64,000 nt of DNA from positions 868,001 through 932,000 of the forward strand of contig NZ_CP035130.1 of assembly GCF_004101785.1 (NCBI RefSeq), read 5' to 3'. The notes under the pieces were generated by a model. That model was given only the letters and a program-made list of their open reading frames with translations, was not told the origin of the DNA and did not search any database. The position numbers and the translations under genes are program-made. The stretch is from Gudongella oleilytica (GTDB taxonomy: Bacteria; Bacillota; Clostridia; Tissierellales; Tissierellaceae). Positions 30,754-41,816 of the stretch are shown piece after piece (the stretch's first letter is position 1; each line of letters starts with the position of its first letter).

Positions 30754-32118
30754 ATGACTGAGATCGGATCGAAATTTATTGAAGAAGTTATAGATTTGAC
30801 ACACGATGGGGATGGGGTAGTCAGAGCTGGAGACCTAACAGTTTTTGTTGCGGGCTGCCTGATTGGTGACAAGATAGAATTTGAAATAGTTGAAATCAAA
30901 AAAAACTACGGGATCGGAAGACTGCTATCTATACTTGAGCCTTCCTCTAAAAGAGTAAGCTACGCCTTTGATACTAAAAGCTTGGGTGGCGGAGCTCCTC
31001 TCATAGATTTGGACTATAAAGCTCAGCTTAATTGGAAATGGGAGAAGGTTAAAAAGGATTTTGAAAGAATTGCAGGTCTGAAATTGGAGATAAGGCCAAT
31101 TATAGGGATGGGTTATCCTTTCAGGTACAGGAACCATACCCAGGTTCCAGTGGGTATTAATAATGGAGAGGTTGTAACCGGGTATTACAAAAAGGGCACA
31201 AATATTATAGTTCCCATGACAGAGGACTACCTCCAACCAGAGCTTGGAGACAGGATACTTTCAGTAGTAAGATCGTGGATGGGGGATCAATCATTAGAGC
31301 CGTATGACAGATTTTCAAAGACAGGAAAGATAAAGCATATTGGTATAAGGATCAACCAGAACAACGAAGCTATGGTAATAATTGTAACTACCTTTGATAA
31401 ATTACCGGAACTCCACAGCCTTGTGCACAAGCTTATTACCGAAACACCAGGAGTAGTGAGTATCTATCAAAACATCAATCCCGACGATGGAGGGACAACC
31501 TATGGAAGACAGTACAGGCATCTGTTCGGTCAGGAAAAGCTTATAGACTATATAGGTGATCTTAGATTTGAAATATCCCCAAACTCATTTTTTCAGGTAA
31601 ACACCAGCCAAGTGAGTATACTTTATGATACCGCAATCAAATTTCTGGAACCCGGCAGTTTGGACACAATATGTGATATATATAGCGGTATAGGAACAAT
31701 TTCACTTTATGCTGCAAGGTTTGCGAGAAAAGTTTACGGAATAGAAAGCATACGAGCAGCGGTTGAAAATGCAAAGAACAATGCAAAGATAAATGGTATC
31801 CAAAATACTGAATTCATAGCTGACAGGGCAGAACTTGCCTTTCCGGATTTATTAAGAGCAGGAGATGCGATAAATAAGGTGATACTGGATCCCCCAAGAA
31901 AGGGCTGCGATAAAAAGGTTATCGATGCTCTGCTGTTGCATAAGCCTGAGACAATAGTATATGTTTCATGCAATCCATCTACTCTTGCAAGAGATACTAA
32001 GCTTCTTATAGATGGCGGGTATGAGGTAAAGGCAGTTCAACCAGTCGACATGTTTCCACATTCCGCACACGTTGAGTGCATAGTTCTGATAAAACGTGCC
32101 GAAAGCCGCGTGAAATAA
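30754..32118 (+). CDS. rlmD: 23S rRNA (uracil-5-)-methyltransferase, RlmD/RumA type
   Basis: SAM-dependent methyltransferase that makes 5-methyluridine in 23S rRNA. The 454 residues comprise an N-terminal TRAM-like OB part, a central domain, and a C-terminal Rossmann methyltransferase with DIYSGIGTISLYAA, the catalytic DPPRKGCD and YVSCNPSTLARD. The N-terminal iron-sulphur cysteines of E. coli RlmD are not apparent. ATG 30754 follows GGGAGGAAG; ATG 30739 lies on that site. The last codons after HVECIVLIK switch to CGT, CGC and GTG, unlike the AGA-rich gene body, consistent with a replaced 3' end at an integration junction. Confidence 0.92.
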   Translation: MTEIGSKFIEEVIDLTHDGDGVVRAGDLTVFVAGCLIGDKIEFEIVEIKKNYGIGRLLSILEPSSKRVSYAFDTKSLGGGAPLIDLDYKAQLNWKWEKVKKDFERIAGLKLEIRPIIGMGYPFRYRNHTQVPVGINNGEVVTGYYKKGTNIIVPMTEDYLQPELGDRILSVVRSWMGDQSLEPYDRFSKTGKIKHIGIRINQNNEAMVIIVTTFDKLPELHSLVHKLITETPGVVSIYQNINPDDGGTTYGRQYRHLFGQEKLIDYIGDLRFEISPNSFFQVNTSQVSILYDTAIKFLEPGSLDTICDIYSGIGTISLYAARFARKVYGIESIRAAVENAKNNAKINGIQNTEFIADRAELAFPDLLRAGDAINKVILDPPRKGCDKKVIDALLLHKPETIVYVSCNPSTLARDTKLLIDGGYEVKAVQPVDMFPHSAHVECIVLIKRAESRVK

Positions 32119-32281
32119 GGCTTTGCGAGGATTTAGATGAGCGGTCTTTGAAAGGAAAATAGGATGATAAAACGCATGGTTTTATTTAGCCAAAATGTAA
32201 TATGAAGGCAACTTCTCAAAGATTAAATGATTGAAAAAGTGGCGTGTCGACAAGAAATATAGAGAAAAACAAATAAACCCG

Positions 32282-32309
32282 TTGAAAAAGAAAAAAAAAA
32301 TAGTATAAT
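32282..32309 (+). promoter_or_regulatory. Promoter of the riboswitch-controlled cassette
   Basis: TTGAAA (32282-32287) and TATAAT (32304-32309), 16 bases apart. The predicted start near 32316 lies just before the inverted repeat and the aptamer. Confidence 0.75.
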
Positions 32310-32319
32310 ATTACCATAT

Positions 32320-32348
32320 AACTATGTTGCGGTTACAACAACATAGTT
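32320..32348. repeat. Perfect 10-bp inverted repeat at the transcription start
   Basis: AACTATGTTG (32320-32329) and CAACATAGTT (32339-32348) flank a nine-base spacer. It could be a DNA operator or a 5' RNA hairpin preceding the aptamer. Its CTATG segment could also compete for pairing with P1 of the riboswitch. Confidence 0.7.
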
Positions 32349-32351
32349 TAC

Positions 32352-32453
32352 ATAGACATTACAATGGCAAACTTGCCGAAAGGCAGGGACGCAAAGCCAA
32401 GGGCCTAAGGAACAAGATAATTCTATGGCAGCCGGTTGCATGAAAGTCTCTAT
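32352..32453 (+). ncRNA. Cyclic di-GMP-I riboswitch (GEMM-I aptamer)
   Basis: The conserved core is plain: GGCAAAC, a six-pair stem closed by a GAAA tetraloop (CTTGCC-GAAA-GGCAGG), GGGACGCAAAGCC, then GGGCCTAAGG in the tetraloop-receptor helix, and CTATGGCAGCCGGTTGC in the second arm. The order and spacing match the GEMM-I class, which binds c-di-GMP. An outer P1 can form between CATAGA (32352-32357) and TCTATG (32449-32454). Downstream genes make and degrade c-di-GMP, supporting a feedback switch. Confidence 0.93.
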
Positions 32454-32477
32454 GCGATTAGTGCACGGGGGCTTTTT
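32443..32477 (+). terminator. Expression-platform terminator of the c-di-GMP riboswitch
   Basis: AAAGTCTC (32443-32450) can pair with GGGGC and following T (32467-32475), with an inner TGC/GCA pairing, ending in TTTTT. The 5' arm overlaps the bases that form the 3' side of aptamer P1, so ligand binding should prevent the terminator. That geometry predicts an ON switch; this is inference from pairing only. Confidence 0.5.
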
Positions 32478-32595
32478 GTGTATGAAGATGGCTTGGTTAG
32501 AAACTAAAGTGAAAGTTTGTACTCGGACGGTGGCAAATAAGGCATTGACAGTGGATTTGGCGGAGCATAAGACCCAAAGGAGGGACTCGTTTAAA

Positions 32596-32652
32596 ATGAA
32601 AAAGACTGAATGCATAAAAGATAGAACACATGTTCCCAACGGGGGGGGGTAA
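32596..32652 (+). CDS. Possible 18-residue leader ORF ending in a nine-G tract
   Basis: ATG 32596 follows AAAGGAGGGA at proper spacing and reads MKKTECIKDRTHVPNGGG to a TAA directly after nine G (32641-32649). If the tract had ten (or seven) G, the frame would continue for about 50 more codons to 32801 with a hydrophobic segment. No family is recognised. It may be a leader peptide, a phase-variable small protein, or a homopolymer error. Confidence 0.35.
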   Translation: MKKTECIKDRTHVPNGGG

Positions 32653-32873
32653 TACCTGTATTTATATCCAAAATATGGAGATATGCTGTTTTATTTGCAT
32701 TGACAAGCATTAATTATGAAGCTAATCAAGGTCTGTTTTCATTAGCTGGAAAAATATGTAATGTTCAGCTGTGTAAAATAGGCCTTTTGATTTTTGCTTA
32801 AATAAATTAAAAAAGTCTGCTGGTCGAAATGAGTACACAGAAAAACTAAAAAACATAGAGAGGGGGAAAAGAA

Positions 32874-33362
32874 ATGGCGGAGAAACAATATGTTGTTTTT
32901 GTACTGGGCAGCGAATACTATGGCCTTGACATTTTAAGCATCCAGGAAATTACAAGATATGAAGCGCCTACAAGAATACCCAATATGTCTTCATACATGC
33001 AAGGCATAATAAATCTGCGGGGGAACATCATCCCTGTAATCGACCTCAGAAGAAAATTTAACCTGGGAAACAGTGAGGTTACAGGTGAAAGCAGGATTAT
33101 TGTCCTAAATCTTTCTGAGCAAAAAGCCGGGCTTTTGGTTGATGCCGTATCCCAGGTAACAAAAATCGGTGATGACCAGATAGAACCGCCGCAAATGACA
33201 ACTGTTGAACACAAATACATAGCCGGTTTAGCCAAAAAGGGAGAAGAAATCATTATCCTTTTGGAACCTGCCGCCATTCTGGCGGAAGAACAAGAAGTAA
33301 AGGCGGGGAAATTGCAGTCTGAAAACCAGGGCATGAAATTATCCGGCATAAACAACTTTTAA
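32874..33362 (+). CDS. cheW: Chemotaxis coupling protein CheW
   Basis: 162-residue single-domain CheW, the SH3-like adaptor that links chemoreceptors to the kinase CheA. It begins YVVFVLGSEYYGLDI and has the family IRNM-like core IPNMSSYMQGIINLRGNIIPVIDLR, and SRIIVLN. The C-terminal 30 residues are extra and charged. GAGAGGGGGAAAAGA precedes the ATG. No cheA lies in the window, so it must join a kinase encoded elsewhere. Codons are richer in G+C than in the host genes to the left. It is the first gene behind the c-di-GMP riboswitch. Confidence 0.95.
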   Translation: MAEKQYVVFVLGSEYYGLDILSIQEITRYEAPTRIPNMSSYMQGIINLRGNIIPVIDLRRKFNLGNSEVTGESRIIVLNLSEQKAGLLVDAVSQVTKIGDDQIEPPQMTTVEHKYIAGLAKKGEEIIILLEPAAILAEEQEVKAGKLQSENQGMKLSGINNF

Positions 33363-33381
33363 GCGGGGAGGGAGAAACAGT

Positions 33382-35979
33382 ATGGAAGAAAATATTATGC
33401 GGGAAATTTTGCGCCAGGCGCCCTTTGGCTATGCTTACCACAAACTGGTTTTAAGCGCAGAAGGGATTCCGGAAGACTATATTTTTCTTGATGTCAACCC
33501 TGCTTTTGAAGAAATGACCGGGCTAAAAAAAGAAAAGATCTTGGGGGAAAAAGTGACGGAAGTCATACCTGGCATCAAAGAAGATTCTTTTGACTGGATA
33601 AAATTTTACGGCCAAATCGCCTTAAATGGCGGAAGGGAAGAATTTACCCAATACTCCGGGCCGCTTGGGAGATGGTACAAAGTAACCGCTTTTTCCTGGG
33701 AGCAAGGTTATTTTGCAACCTATATTCAAGAAATCACCGCAGAAATGGAAAAGATAAAAATCCTGGAAAAACAGCAGAAAACCATTGGCGAACTCACCCT
33801 GGAAATGGAAAAAGTTTTTAACGGAACCCATGATGCGATCTTTCTCATCAAGGCCGAAAACGGAGAATTCAGGTACCTGCGCAATAACTCTGCTCATCAG
33901 GAATTGACCGGCATTTCTCTGGACATACTCAGAGACAAAACGCCGGTTGAACTTTTAGGCGCGGAATTAGGAAAAGTCATTGAAGCCAACTACCGGAAAT
34001 GTCTGGAAAGCGGGGAGACAATAACTTATGAGGAAACCCTGAATCTTCCAGCAGGAGAAAGAGTTTGGCTCACCAGTCTTACGCCGGTTATCGAAAAGGA
34101 TAGAGTCAAATACATTGTCGGCTCCAGCAAGGACATAACGTTACAGAAGAAAGCAGAAAAGGAAAGAGAAGAGTTGTTACATCGCCTGCAGGCCATGTTC
34201 AACGGACATACCGCCGTCATGCTTCTGAACGAGCCAATATCCGGCAGAATCGTTGACGCCAACCCCGCCGCTTGCACATTTTACGGTTATACCAGGGAAG
34301 AACTCTTAAACATGCACATTCAGGACATCAATATGCTGCCCAAAGAGGAAGTTGCAAAACGGCGGCTCATGGCCTTACAAAAAAAGCAGAGGCATTTTGT
34401 TTTCCCTCATCGGTTGAAGAACGGGGAAGTAAGGATGATTGATGTTTATTCCTGCCCTATAACATATAACGAGGAAAATTTACTTTTTTCCATCATTTTC
34501 GATGTCACTGACAGAGAAAAGTACAAAAAAGAACTATACATAGAAAAAGAACTATTTAGAACTACCCTCCTTTCCATTGGTGACGGAGTGGTTACTACTG
34601 ACCTGGCAGGTAATATAACGGTCATGAATCAGGTTGCCCAAGAAATAACGGGCTATAGTGAAGAGGAAGTCAAAGGCCGTCCCTTTGCCCAGGTTTTCCG
34701 GCTGATCAGCGAAGAAACAGGGAAAAAAGCTGAAGATCCCGTGGAAAAAGTCCTGCAAACCGGGAAAATCGTTGGGCTAGCCAACCACACCGCTTTAATC
34801 ACCAAAGACGGCCGGCGGGTACCAATCGCCGACAGCGCTGCTCCCATCAAAGACGAACAGGGCCAAACTTTTGGGGTAGTCATGGTCTTTAGGGACGTCA
34901 CCCAGGAAAAAGACTGGCAGGAAAAAATCCTCTACCTTAGCTACCACGATACCTTGACTGGCTTATACAACCGGCGCTTTATGGAAGAAGAATTGAAAAG
35001 ACAGGAGCTAAACGGCAAATTGCCAGTGGCTGTCATCATGGCTGATGTCAATGGACTGAAGCTGGCCAACGATGTCTTCGGACACGCCGAAGGGGACAAG
35101 CTCCTTAAGAAAGCTGCTGAAGCCATCAAAAAATGCTGCCGCAAAGAAGACTTGGTCTCCCGTTGGGGCGGGGACGAATTTTTGATAGTCTTGCCTCAAA
35201 CCTCAGCCCAAACTGCGGAAGAAATAACAAAAAGAATAAAGACTGCCACCCAGGCCTATGAGACTGAACACCTCCGCCTAAGCCTAGCCTTGGGCTGTGC
35301 CACCAAAGAAACAGCAGGCGAAAAACTGGAGGAATTGGTCAAAGAGGCTGAGGAGAGGATGTACCGCCAAAAGCTGAACGAGGGCAAAAGTTTCCGCCAC
35401 AGCATTGTCAACACTCTTTTAGCTACTCTTTACGCCAAAAGTTCGGAAACAGAGGAGCACGCCGGGCGCTTAAAAGATTTTTGTTTAAGGAGCGGCTCCC
35501 TGCTTAAACTGACTTCCAAGGAAATGGACGAACTTTCCCTGCTGGCAGTTTTGCACGATATTGGCAAAGTAGGGATCCGGGAAGAAATCTTGAAAAAACC
35601 AGGGTCTTTGACGGAACTTGAGTGGGAGGAGATGAAAAAACACCCGGAGATAGGCTGCCGGATAGCGCAGAACACCCCTGAGCTGGGACCGATTGCGGAA
35701 TACATCCTGTGCCACCATGAGCGCTGGGACGGCCAAGGCTATCCCCAGGGGCTGAAAGGAGAAGAAATACCCTTACTATGCCGGATACTGGCGGTAGCCG
35801 ACGCCTATGACGCCATGACCAGCGACCGAACATACCGTAAAGCATTGAGCAGGGAGGAAGCGATTGAGGAGATAAAAAGGAATGCAGGGACCCAGTTTGA
35901 TCCCCAGATAGTGGAAATGTTTTTAGAAAGCATTAAAAGCATCAATAAAAAAGGAGATGAAAGAAATGGGGTTTATTAA
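33382..35979 (+). CDS. PAS-GGDEF-HD-GYP bifunctional c-di-GMP enzyme
   Basis: 865-residue soluble protein. About four PAS sensor domains fill residues 1-510 ([15 protein letters not shown]; later [16 protein letters not shown] and [16 protein letters not shown]). A diguanylate cyclase domain follows with RWGGDEF near 593-599 and an intact inhibitory RxxD (RKED) just before. An HD-GYP phosphodiesterase domain (about 680-855) has VLHDIGKVG and [11 protein letters not shown]. Both activities look intact, so it may set c-di-GMP up or down according to the PAS signals. The end overlaps the next gene by 14 bases. The product is the ligand of the riboswitch upstream. Confidence 0.93.
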
Positions 35980-37702
35980 CAACCTGAAAACGAAAACCAA
36001 ACTATTGCTGTCTTTTGCCGTTATCCTGGTCATCACGGCGGTTATCGGAGTCAACGGCCTTCTGACCGCCAATCAGATCCAAAGCAACCTGGATGAGCTT
36101 TATAAAAACCGTTTACTTCCCAACATGCTGCTTGGAAAAATGCAGGTGAACCAGGAAAAAGCATCCCAGGAGATGCTCAGGATTCTCTGGAAGACACAAG
36201 CCCTGCAAGACCCGGCTGTCATTAAAACTTCCGAAGAAGCTTTAAAGAAGGTGATTGAGGAAAATGACCGCCTGCTCAAAGAATACGAAGGAGGAGCCTT
36301 GTCGCCAGAAGAAAAAGCCCTCCTGGACAAGCTGAAAACTGTCAACTCCAGCTATCGCGCAGCCAGGCAGGAGATTATAGATGCGGTCAAGGCCGGCAAC
36401 TTCAGCCAGGCAGTCCAGCTTAACGACCAGAAAGCGAAGCCTTTGCGGGAAGAAACTTCCAACATTTTAGCCCAAATGAAAGAACTGAACAATAAAATAG
36501 CCTCCGACTTGATGGTTGCTGCTCATGCCGATTTTGCCAAGGCCAGGAACATTGCTTTGATCATGCTGGGGATTGCTCTCCTGGCAGGTTTAGGTTTTTC
36601 CCTGCTTATGGGCAGCATTATCGCCAATCCTGTCAAAGCCGCGGTGGAACATGCCCGCCTTATGGCCGGCGGCGACTTCACCATGGAAGTGCCGGAAAGC
36701 TTCCTGCGGCGTAAGGATGAAATGGGACAGCTGGCTCAGGCTTTTGCCGAGATGAACTCAAAAATACGAGCTCTGTTAAAAGAAGTGGCTGCCTCTGTGG
36801 CTGAGACCAGCGCAGCCAGCCAGGAACTCTCCGCCACAGTGGAAGAAGTGAGCGCCCAGGGGCAGAACGTCAATGCCTCGGTGGAACAGATTGCCGCCGG
36901 GATGGAAGAGACCAGCGCTTCCGTAGAGGAAGTTACCTCCTCCAGCACGGAAATAAAACATGGGGCTGAACAGCTTAAAGCAAGGGCAGGCGAAGCCAAA
37001 GCCAACGTCGCAGAAATCGAAAAAAGAGCCGAAGAAATGAAAGAAACGGCTAAAGCCTCCAAACAAACTGCTCAAAGCATTTACAATGCTAAGCAGCAGG
37101 AAATCAAGAAAGCCATAGACGAAGCAAAAATTGTTGAAGAAATTGCCAGAATGACTGATGTAATCTCGGAAATAGCCGGCCAGACCAATCTCTTGGCCCT
37201 TAATGCCGCCATTGAAGCTGCTAGGGCGGGCGAGCAGGGCCGGGGCTTCGCCGTGGTGGCGGAAGAAGTCAGGAAACTCGCCGAACATTCGGCCCAGACG
37301 GCAGGGAGCATCCAGCAGGTAATTCAACAAGTTAAAACTGCTGTGGACAAGCTAACCGCCAATGCCGGGGAAATCCTGAAATTCATCGACGACAAAGTGG
37401 CGCCGGACTATGATATGCTGGAAAAAACCGGTGAGCAGTATGCACAGGACGCGCGGTTTGTCAAAGCACTGACCGAAGAATTTGCTGCTGCGGCTTCCCA
37501 GATTGCTGCGTCCATCGGCGAAGTTAATACCGCCATCGAAGGAGTGGCGGCAGCCATAGAAGAAGCCACCGCTTCTTCCCAGGAAATCAGCAACAGTGCT
37601 ACAGAAATGGCAAAAGCCCTGGAAGGGGTGGCCAGAACTGCCCAGTCCCAGGCCGAGATGGCGGAGAAGCTGAGTGCACTGGTAGCGAGATTTAAAGTAT
37701 AA
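35966..37702 (+). CDS. Methyl-accepting chemotaxis protein
   Basis: 578-residue chemoreceptor. TM1 is at about residues 10-30, an extracellular four-helix-bundle sensor runs to about 190, TM2 follows ([21 protein letters not shown]), then HAMP and a long cytoplasmic coiled coil. The hairpin tip [21 protein letters not shown] is the canonical CheA/CheW contact. Repeated EE/QE-rich heptads flank it as methylation sites. ATG 35966 follows AAAAGGAG; ATG 35957 sits too close to that site. The gene overlaps the end of the cyclase gene, so the two are translationally coupled. Ligand unknown. Confidence 0.95.
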
Positions 37703-37746: not shown

Positions 37747-39798
37747 ATGGAGATAAATATAGTTTCCAATAAGAAGAAAATACTGCTGGTGGAAGACAGC
37801 CGCTTGACTGCCCTAATTGCAGTGAAGTCATTGCAAAGTAGCGGCTATGATGTGGAAACCGCTGCTACGGGGGAGGAAGCAGTGCAAAAGGCAAGCGGCG
37901 CTTCCCCACCGGACCTGGTCCTTATGGACATCGAATTGGCGGGGAAAATGGACGGAATTGAGGCGGCCCGCAGGATCCTTAAAACCCGGGATATTCCAGT
38001 TGTATTTCTTACCGCCAACACCTCCGGGGAAATCTTAGAAAAAATAAAAGAGGTCAAGGCTTACGGGTTTGTGCTAAAAGGCATAGACAAAGCTGCCATG
38101 CTCTCCACAATAGAAATGGCCATTAAACTGCATGAAGCCAATAGTCATGCCGGGATGTTTGAGCGGCTTTTCGAAAAATCCTTGGATGAGCTCTATATTT
38201 TCCACCCGGAGTCCTTAAAATTTGTTGCTGTCAACCGGGCCGCCCGGAATAACCTGGGATATACAAGCGAAGAACTGAAGACCATGACCCCTCTAGACCT
38301 CAAACCGGAATTTAATCTGGAGAGTTTCCGGAAACTACTTCAACCACTCCTCAGCGGGGAACAGGAGCAGCTCTCTTTTACCACAATACACCGCCGCAAG
38401 GACGGCACACACTACCCTGTGGAAATAAGTTTGCAGCTTACCGATTACAGGGGAGAAAAATTTTGTCTGACGTTGGTAGTTGACCTGACTGAACGCAGAA
38501 AAATGGAAGATGAACTGAAGGAAAGGGAAGAGATCTTAAGCGCCATTACAGGTACAGCCCGGGATGCCATCGTCCTGCTTGACAGCCAGGGAAACGTCAT
38601 GTTTTGGAACCGGGCAGCGGAAAAGCTCTTTGGCTATTCCCGGGAAGAAATCATGGGCAAAGATTTGCACCGGCTGGTGGTGCCTGATGAGCGCCTTTAT
38701 AAGGTTCATCGTAAGGCTTTCCGGCGCTTTCAGTCGACAGGACAGGGAAATGCCATAGGGAAAACAATTGAGCTGAAAGCCAAACGCAAAGACGGGCGGG
38801 AAATTGATGTAGAGCTTTCCCTGTCTGCTTTGAAGTTCAGGAATGGCTGGCATGCGGTGGGAATTGTGCGCGACATACGCGAACGCAAGTGGCAGGAGGA
38901 AGAAAACAGGCGCCGAGAAGAACGGCTCCGCATGATGCTGGAAGGCATACCCAGCCCGGCCTGGCTGGTATCAAGGGAGCGCCGCATTCTGGCGCAGAAT
39001 AAAGCAGCGAAATCACTATTGGGGACAAAAATCGGAGATTATTGCTGGAAAGGCATCCATGGCGGGGAATACCTGACGGATAAATACAGGGAGTTATTTA
39101 AAAAGAAAGGCTTGCTATTACCCGGCGCCAAATGCTATTTCTGCCGCGGAGACGAAGCCTTGGACAAAAATGAACCCATAAACAGCGAAGTGGAGCTGGC
39201 AGGCAATATCTGGGATACCTGGTGGATCCCTTTGGGAGAAGACATATATCTTCATTATGCCACAGATGTCACTAAATATAAAAAGATGGAAGAGGAGCTC
39301 CGCCATTTATCTGTTGTAGATGTTTTGACAAACGCCTATAACCGCCGCTATTTTACGCAAAAACTGGAGGAAGAAATAGAGCGGGCGCGGCGCACTGACG
39401 GCAAGTTTTCTCTTGTAATGCTGGATATAGACCGTTTTAAGCGCATTAACGACAACTTTGGCCATAACGCCGGTGATTTAGTCCTAAAAAGCATGACAGA
39501 AATGATTAAGAACAGGATACGCAAAATAGATACCCTGGCCCGCTGGGGCGGGGAGGAATTTGTCATACTCCTGCCGGATACAACTGTAAATAATGCGGCC
39601 CGTTTGGCGGAGGAACTGCGGGAAAGTCTAAGCCAAATGGATATACCTGGTGTAGGCAGGGTCACTGCCAGCTTCGGGGTTGCCGGCTACTGTCCGGGGG
39701 ACAATGTTGACTCATTGGTGAATAAGGCAGACAACATGATGTATGAGGCCAAAGCTGCCGGCAGGAATTGTGTGCGGTATATGAATGAGTGTGAATAG
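37747..39798 (+). CDS. Response regulator with receiver, PAS and GGDEF domains
   Basis: 683-residue protein. The N-terminal receiver (about 8-130) has the acidic pair after VEDS, the phospho-acceptor Asp61 in LMDIEL, the FLTAN threonine and the FVLKG lysine. Three PAS-like domains follow (about 140-510; GYTSEELKTM, GYSREEIMGK). The C-terminal diguanylate cyclase (about 520-683) has RWGGEEF at 599-605 with an intact RxxD inhibitory site (RKID). No histidine kinase gene is adjacent; CheA of the array that uses the neighbouring CheW is a candidate partner. Start ATG follows ACAGGTGGTAAAAG. Confidence 0.93.
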   Translation: MEINIVSNKKKILLVEDSRLTALIAVKSLQSSGYDVETAATGEEAVQKASGASPPDLVLMDIELAGKMDGIEAARRILKTRDIPVVFLTANTSGEILEKIKEVKAYGFVLKGIDKAAMLSTIEMAIKLHEANSHAGMFERLFEKSLDELYIFHPESLKFVAVNRAARNNLGYTSEELKTMTPLDLKPEFNLESFRKLLQPLLSGEQEQLSFTTIHRRKDGTHYPVEISLQLTDYRGEKFCLTLVVDLTERRKMEDELKEREEILSAITGTARDAIVLLDSQGNVMFWNRAAEKLFGYSREEIMGKDLHRLVVPDERLYKVHRKAFRRFQSTGQGNAIGKTIELKAKRKDGREIDVELSLSALKFRNGWHAVGIVRDIRERKWQEEENRRREERLRMMLEGIPSPAWLVSRERRILAQNKAAKSLLGTKIGDYCWKGIHGGEYLTDKYRELFKKKGLLLPGAKCYFCRGDEALDKNEPINSEVELAGNIWDTWWIPLGEDIYLHYATDVTKYKKMEEELRHLSVVDVLTNAYNRRYFTQKLEEEIERARRTDGKFSLVMLDIDRFKRINDNFGHNAGDLVLKSMTEMIKNRIRKIDTLARWGGEEFVILLPDTTVNNAARLAEELRESLSQMDIPGVGRVTASFGVAGYCPGDNVDSLVNKADNMMYEAKAAGRNCVRYMNECE

Positions 39799-40880: not shown

Positions 40881-41816
40881 TTGAACAGCATTATCAGCTG
40901 GGTCGGCGGCAAAAAGGCCCTGCGCGAACTTATTTATCAGCGGATGCCCAAAGATTATGGAAGATACATTGAGGTCTTTGGCGGCGGCGGTTGGGTACTC
41001 TTCGGCAGGAAACCGGATGCAAGCATGGAGGTCTATAATGACTACAACGCCGACCTTGCCAACCTGTTCCGCTGCGTCAAGGAGCGTCCTCTTGCCCTGC
41101 TCAAGGAGTTGAATTTCCTGCCCCTAAACGGCAGGGACGAATTCAACGTCCTCAAAAAATATCTTGAAAAGGAGGAATTCACCAGCGAATACCTGCGGGA
41201 GGAATTGGAACTGGCGGAGAACTGTCTGTCCCCGCCACAGTTTGAGGAAATCAAAGCGATTCTCATTGAAAACGCGACCATGTCGGACGTAAAACGCGCC
41301 GCCGCCTTCTTCAAGCTGATCCGCTACAGCTACGGCAGCGGCTGCACCTCATATAGCTGCCAGCCCTTTGATATCCGGAAAACCTTCCACCTTATATGGT
41401 CGGGAAGCCGCAGGCTTAAGGATACGGTCATCGAGAATAAAGACTTTGAGGCGTTGATCCTTCAATACGACAGGGACAACGCCTTTTTTTATTGCGACCC
41501 GCCGTACTACCAGACCGAGGGGCATTACGAGGTGGAATTTAAAAAGGAGGATCATGTGCGACTGCGGGATACGCTGAAACAATGTAAGGGCAAATGGCTG
41601 GTGTCATATAACGACTGCGAATATATCCGAGAGCTGTATAAGGGCTACTACATCGAAGCCGTCACCCGCATTAATAACCTCGCACAGCGATATGAGGGAG
41701 GCTGCGAATACCCGGAGGTGCTCATTTCCAACTACGACACCGCGGAGCGGCTGCGGGATGCCCCAATGCAAATAGGGCTGTTTGATTTGGCAGACGGCTT
41801 TTACAACACGGAATAG
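40881..41816 (+). CDS. Dam-type DNA adenine N6-methyltransferase
   Basis: 311-residue class D12 methyltransferase. Motif I is ISWVGGKKALRELI with the SAM-binding FGGGGWVLF (a variant of FxGxG); the catalytic motif IV is YCDPPYY near residue 208. The order of motifs is the alpha class used by Dam. No restriction endonuclease is adjacent, so it is a solitary methylase that may protect the element from host restriction or mark it for regulation. The start is TTG 40881 after AAGGAGGTGATGA; no closer ATG exists. The target sequence cannot be read from the gene, though GATC-like specificity is common in the class. Confidence 0.93.
   Translation: MNSIISWVGGKKALRELIYQRMPKDYGRYIEVFGGGGWVLFGRKPDASMEVYNDYNADLANLFRCVKERPLALLKELNFLPLNGRDEFNVLKKYLEKEEFTSEYLREELELAENCLSPPQFEEIKAILIENATMSDVKRAAAFFKLIRYSYGSGCTSYSCQPFDIRKTFHLIWSGSRRLKDTVIENKDFEALILQYDRDNAFFYCDPPYYQTEGHYEVEFKKEDHVRLRDTLKQCKGKWLVSYNDCEYIRELYKGYYIEAVTRINNLAQRYEGGCEYPEVLISNYDTAERLRDAPMQIGLFDLADGFYNTE

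Follow-up and report, generated by a model that had tools for sequence, protein, structure and literature searches.

The window analysed here, a stretch of 64,000 nucleotides from Gudongella oleilytica, contains a predicted c-di-GMP riboswitch upstream of genes for enzymes that handle the same second messenger, and the question that this locus raises is in which direction the RNA would act on these genes when c-di-GMP accumulates. A preliminary description of the sequence proposed that the ligand relieves transcription termination, so that a cassette making c-di-GMP would be switched on by its own product. We compared this proposal with the aptamer, the helices that compete in the leader, the genes downstream, models of folding and 148 related sites.

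The aptamer and the genes downstream

The identity of the RNA was assessed with the covariance-model scan that the preliminary description had called for, and its assignment to GEMM-I was borne out; the c-di-GMP-I family (RF01051) scored 75.5 bits against a gathering threshold of 35, with an E-value of 5.1e-13 for the 64 kb, and the match spanned the full model (1-87). No other Rfam family reached gathering level within the window. The position that determines ligand specificity, a ligand-contact base that we take to be G20 and to be A in cGAMP variants, is a G in the window, and a cGAMP switch was ruled out on this ground. The cGAMP variants, as described in a survey of tandem GEMM-I riboswitches, differ in one pocket nucleotide (PMC9481103). 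The possibility that the leader holds another RNA family besides the aptamer was also considered and rejected; a scan of 32100-33400 by E-value returned two other models, both microRNAs and far under their cut-offs. From the Rfam alignment, C92 of the aptamer was placed at 32439. The aptamer and the four genes that follow it are:

32356..32443, + strand, c-di-GMP-I (GEMM-I) riboswitch aptamer (RF01051, 75.5 bits)
32874..33362, + strand, CheW (PF01584, E 5.3e-40)
33382..35979, + strand, PAS-repeat GGDEF-HD-GYP protein with intact motifs (domain matches, motif check)
35957..37702, + strand, methyl-accepting chemotaxis protein with 4HB, HAMP and MCPsignal domains (domain matches)
37747..39798, + strand, REC-PAS-PAS-GGDEF protein with RKID-TLARW-GGEEF intact (domain matches, motif check)

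The spacings between these genes (19, -23 and 44 nt) suggest that they constitute one operon, and the four presumably form a single transcript. The GGDEF-HD-GYP and REC-PAS-GGDEF enzymes named in the preliminary description are both present, but its list was incomplete, as the first gene (cheW) and the third (that of the methyl-accepting chemotaxis protein, MCP) had been missed. Both GGDEF motifs carry an RxxD five residues upstream, which we take to be the I-site of product inhibition, and the HD-GYP motifs, HDIGK among them, are intact, suggesting that the HD-GYP domain is likely a phosphodiesterase. The intact HD-GYP motifs, together with an I-site in both GGDEF domains, indicate that this is not purely a c-di-GMP-making cassette; the operon also encodes a likely phosphodiesterase domain and two chemotaxis proteins. 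Judged from its sequence, the element is a genuine GEMM-I riboswitch, predicted to bind c-di-GMP, upstream of an operon for chemotaxis and c-di-GMP turnover.

The genome consists of one contig of 2,356,157 bases, with three GEMM-I riboswitches, 17 GGDEF matches and 3 EAL matches. No orthologue of the GGDEF-HD-GYP protein was found at E 1e-155 in 27 other genomes of the family, and its best relatives among 59 other genomes were 37% (full length) to 47% (partial) identical; CheW had five matches in the genome collection, 40-44% identical, in a search reaching close relatives only. No orthologue of the operon as a whole was found in the genomes searched. Directly downstream of the operon lies a gene for a D12-class adenine DNA methyltransferase (PF02086) at 40881-41816, the DNA of which has a higher G+C content than the DNA upstream of the riboswitch.

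Leader elements and competing helices

The other elements of the leader are:

32282..32309, + strand, sigma-70-type promoter-like site, TTGAAA-16 nt-TATAAT (11/12 consensus positions)
32320..32348, + strand, 10-bp hairpin close to where the leader is expected to begin, upstream of the aptamer (-9.1 kcal/mol)
32351..32359, + strand, P1 5' strand, comprising distal CAUAGA (32351-32356) and proximal CAU (32357-32359)
32428-32430/32432/32434-32442 with 32462-32464/32461/32451-32459, + strand, proposed antiterminator (most stable fold of the free RNA when it ends at 32466)
32443..32475, + strand, terminator-like hairpin, then U at 32476-32477 (fold energy)

The promoter-like site is suggestive only, because 32100-33000 contains four such sites, close to the 3.1 expected from shuffled sequences. 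The fold of the leader is more stable than its shuffles (z -2.43). The hairpin at 32320-32348 is perfectly paired, and its 3' arm contains ACAUAG, a sequence found again downstream in the P1 5' strand; the hairpin may serve as a 5' stabiliser or as a decoy.

The preliminary description had also described a platform of the termination type, and this holds, in the form of a weak terminator-like hairpin at 32443-32475 with the arms AAAGUCUCU...GGGGGCUUU. Its energy is -12.7 kcal/mol in full and -9.3 kcal/mol for the G/C part; it contains one mismatch and several G-U pairs and is followed by a U run of only five, and a simple terminator scan, which found no terminator at all (0), missed it. Such a weak terminator may be leaky. 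About 400 nt separate it from cheW, and this interval contains a run of nine G at 32641-32649, the only run of G or C of at least nine in the 2.36-Mb genome. The run ends a short ORF (ATG at 32596, stop at 32650) preceded by the Shine-Dalgarno-like AAAGGAGGG, and one extra G would open approximately 50 further codons; no relative of this continuation was found in 59 other genomes. The tract is possibly a slippage site or a sequencing error.

Whether the terminator can be controlled by the ligand depends on the bases that it shares with the aptamer. Its 5' arm begins at 32443, which is C92+4, and its 13 pairs have no base in common with the ligand-binding core; the hallmark of a core-overlapping ON switch, a terminator arm that shares bases of P3 or C92, is thus not found in the window. 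The overlap previously claimed between the terminator arm (32443-32450) and the P1 3' strand proved to be correct in part. It exists for the distal part of P1, a weak helix of CAUAGA 32351-32356 with UCUAUG 32449-32454 that overlaps the terminator 5' arm, but the proximal P1 of 3 bp (CAU 32357-32359 with AUG 32440-32442) stops right before the terminator, so that the two could coexist. In another 3-bp register of P1, which the automatic procedure selected, UUA 32359-32361 pairs with UGA 32441-32443, and a single base (32443) is common to it and the outermost terminator pair.

When compared with shuffled sequences, the pairing of the distal P1 gave p 0.06-0.16, and when the entire 5' flank of 31 nt was considered, the P1 complementarity of the window did not reach significance (p 0.375). 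In the free RNA, CAUAGA has an alternative partner, UCUAUG 32422-32427 in P3, with p 0.011 against shuffles. The proposed antiterminator uses the 3' strand of the aptamer to occupy the upper stem and loop of the terminator, and its complementarity was marginal (p 0.09-0.13). Neither the antiterminator nor the distal P1 is convincing on complementarity alone.

Folding models and related sites

In order to follow the competition between these helices, fold energies were compared for RNAs of increasing length. As long as the free RNA ended no later than 32460, it preferred an aptamer-like fold that includes the extended P1 (ensemble -29.5 versus -28.6 kcal/mol for the antiterminator), and when the RNA ended at 32466 the antiterminator was the best fold, accounting for -32.3 of an ensemble of -32.7 kcal/mol. 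At 32472 the terminator (-33.4) and the antiterminator (-32.4) of the free RNA were 1.0 kcal/mol apart; when the core was held at the same length, the terminator (-31.1) was ahead of the distal P1 (-26.8) by 4.3. The linkage, ddG, was defined as the gap with the core held minus the gap in the free RNA. It was negative in 36/36 settings, which combined three sets of parameters with two dangle models, three starts and two ends, and ranged from -1.4 to -7.0 kcal/mol whether or not the proximal P1 was fixed; the model thus says that ligand promotes termination. In the comparison across GEMM-I sites the ddG of the window was -3.2, a value obtained from secondary-structure energies, which take no account of tertiary contacts or of a P1 stabilised by the ligand; in these terms, approximately 3 kcal/mol extra on the distal P1 would cancel it. 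The equilibrium coupling was close to zero for the window and for most OFF-type sites and had no discriminating power.

A home-made co-transcriptional model gave, at 0.03 s, a terminator fraction of 0.62 for the free RNA and of 0.996 when the core was stabilised; with the proximal P1 also locked, the fraction was 0.51-0.58, versus 0.62 free. At 0.3 s all terminator fractions were at least 0.979. The model was run on four controls, the labels of which rest on a reading of their layout rather than on experiments and from which L097 and L101 were left out; the fraction fell in the ON controls (0.996 to 0.55 and 0.96 to 0.36) and rose in the OFF controls (0.64 to 0.999 and 0.62 to 0.98). Kinetically, then, the window is modelled as OFF or about neutral, and at most slightly ON. 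This model superseded an earlier one in which states were poorly connected and the terminator fraction was often constant in time; that faulty version gave the window, at 0.03 s, a fraction of 0.098 for the free RNA, of 0.78-0.84 when the core was held and of 0.089 when P1 was locked, and it placed 6/6 controls as expected at 0.03 s, L101 by only 0.006 and with L097 reversed by 10 s.

The search covered 60 genomes, one of them the window's own, and found GEMM-I in 44; all 148 matches, that in the window among them, made up the survey sample. The automatic classes comprised 34 sites with a core-overlapping terminator, 33 with a distal one, 32 with a Shine-Dalgarno sequence in P1, four with a near terminator (at C92+1 to +8) and 45 with none found. 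GGDEF, HD-GYP, EAL, MCP, CheW or REC genes were sought by phmmer, with seeds from the window and its own genome, among the first four genes starting no more than 3 kb from each site; such chemotaxis or c-di-GMP-enzyme genes accompany 28 of the 148 sites, again including the window, and the link of GEMM-I with chemotaxis operons recurs in the order. Four sites (L101/L102 and L145/L146, two each) have an HD-GYP gene in first position, and two sites of one genus, L118 and L148, stand directly before a GGDEF gene, with ddG values of -5.0 and -1.3, the latter for a hand-set terminator.

With 14 terminators set by hand, 81 sites were terminator-bearing. Core-overlapping terminators were found at 38/58 of those before other genes versus 1/23 of those before chemotaxis or c-di-GMP-enzyme genes (Fisher p 2.4e-7, a value that overstates independence, as sister genomes contribute many of the sites). 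The single core-overlap case in the latter group, L121, had been called wrongly; its terminator in fact lies at C92+18 (hand-set), and the count is then 0/23, window included. Among the relatives with a clear ON layout, the terminator arm starts inside the core, at C92-3 to C92-10. The energies followed the same division; ddG was above +0.5 in 36/38 core-overlap sites, with one below -0.5, and below -0.5 in 27/39 distal-terminator sites, with two above +0.5. Of the 22 other terminator-bearing sites with chemotaxis or c-di-GMP-enzyme genes, 16 had a ddG below -0.5, six were no more than 0.5 away from zero and none exceeded +0.5. All nine sites at which the first gene begins with GFTLVEL or GFTLIEL, presumably a pilin-like motif, have core-overlapping terminators, seven by automatic call and two hand-set. 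In these 148 sites the layout splits by gene function, with core overlap (predicted ON) before genes for pilin-like or secreted-protein-like products, whereas genes for chemotaxis and c-di-GMP enzymes are preceded by terminators that are distal or near (predicted OFF).

Two further arrangements were seen in the survey. At L044 (7274-7934, - strand, genome G001, contig 20), four GEMM-I aptamers stand in tandem at intervals of approximately 190 nt. Each aptamer has a core-overlapping terminator (ON layout) of its own, and one secreted-protein-like gene lies downstream; the tandem GEMM-I survey reports doublets and triplets (PMC9481103), and no paper was found under the phrase quadruple tandem riboswitch. 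At L099 and similar sites (32/148 by the automatic class), a Shine-Dalgarno sequence such as AGGAG lies within the P1 3' strand (CCGAAAGGAGAGUUU), which suggests translational OFF control. P1 helices broken by internal loops are recurrent in this translational class.

Direction of switching and known systems

The reading that we favour, and consider probable on the model energetics and the related sites, is that the riboswitch is a transcriptional OFF switch placing the four-gene operon under negative feedback. Without ligand, the aptamer 3' strand (32428-32442) would pair with 32451-32464 and block the upper part of the terminator, so that polymerase reads through; when c-di-GMP is bound, 32428-32442 would be kept inside the aptamer, the terminator at 32443-32475 would form and the operon would be turned down. 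High c-di-GMP would then lower the enzymes for its own synthesis and hydrolysis, plus a chemoreceptor with its CheW, as a homeostatic control tied to the change from motile to sessile life.

The opposite sign, as put forward in the preliminary description, would have the ligand stabilise an extended P1 (CAUAGA 32351-32356 with UCUAUG 32449-32454) and thereby remove the terminator 5' arm. The model does form the distal P1 while the terminator is still incomplete, the CAUAGA of this helix has in the P3 pairing of the free RNA (32422-32427) a plausible second state, interrupted P1 helices are familiar from the translational class, and the kinetic model with P1 locked moved slightly ON-ward at 0.03 s. 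At 32472 with the core held, however, this helix contributes less stability than the terminator, ddG points the other way in every setting, and the arm of the terminator lies outside the core, unlike in the clear ON-layout relatives; given the one hand correction, the ON layout is absent from all 23 terminator-bearing chemotaxis and c-di-GMP-enzyme sites. On these grounds relief of termination by the ligand is unsupported, its deduction from the overlap of terminator and P1 alone was rejected, and we consider positive feedback unlikely. Were it nevertheless the case, a circuit in which c-di-GMP raises two cyclases, a chemoreceptor and CheW might, in what we hold to be an unlikely outcome, be bistable or show a threshold; the window would be the only ON case among those 23 sites, with a layout that opposes distal P1 to terminator in place of the usual core overlap. 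The step from such a switch to a circuit that is autocatalytic rather than homeostatic does not follow either. The modelled sign is OFF, and even under ON control autocatalysis would not be automatic, because the HD-GYP domain is intact and both GGDEF domains carry I-sites, which would limit a runaway.

A leader that switches weakly or not at all, in which the aptamer binds c-di-GMP to little regulatory effect or further control resides in the 400 nt before cheW, would fit the G-U-rich stem with its five U, the terminator scan that passed over it and the near-neutral kinetic outcome with P1 locked. It has a precedent in Bc1 of B. thuringiensis, which is reported to bind c-di-GMP while the downstream genes are unresponsive (PMC11218506). 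The full-length aptamer match, the promoter-like and terminator-like sites in their usual places and the recurrent link with chemotaxis operons in the order speak against it, and we regard it as quite improbable. Under the OFF reading, a c-di-GMP riboswitch would govern an operon for both the synthesis and the breakdown of c-di-GMP that also feeds into a chemotaxis array, probably with a homeostatic sign; moreover, the split between terminator layout and gene function across the 148 sites is a rule that simple reporter assays could test.

According to a 2025 review, GEMM RNA precedes some of the genes for diguanylate cyclases and phosphodiesterases (PMC12564702). Feedback by GEMM-I on a cyclase operon was found in none of the titles and abstract openings searched, a coverage too limited to claim its absence. 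The window shares with the RF01051 family the full-length match, the G at the specificity position and the termination-type platform; compared with other members in this order, its terminator at C92+4 lies between the two common layouts, and its gene set joins CheW, MCP, GGDEF-HD-GYP and REC-GGDEF.

For C. difficile, PMC6200980 describes the confirmed class I switches, that before flgB (Cdi-1-3) included, as OFF and class II as ON; its abstract has class I uniformly OFF, whereas transcript levels downstream of one class I switch increased with c-di-GMP. The window would resemble these class I switches in class, in its motility-side genes and in its predicted OFF sign, but the regulated class I switches named there precede flagellar, adhesin, protease and hypothetical genes, rather than genes for c-di-GMP enzymes and chemotaxis (PMC6200980). 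The triple-tandem c-di-GMP-I riboswitch Bc3-5 of B. thuringiensis, reported as ON in reporter tests (PMC4759541), has the aptamer class and an intrinsic terminator in common with the window; the terminator of Bc4 is described as drawing on P1 and some of P3 as well as on the binding-site C (PMC4759541), a core-overlap layout that the window lacks. At L118 and L148 a riboswitch also precedes a cyclase gene and ddG is likewise of OFF sign, but these sites have a single PAS-GGDEF-like gene, no chemotaxis partners and a distal terminator with a separate antiterminator.
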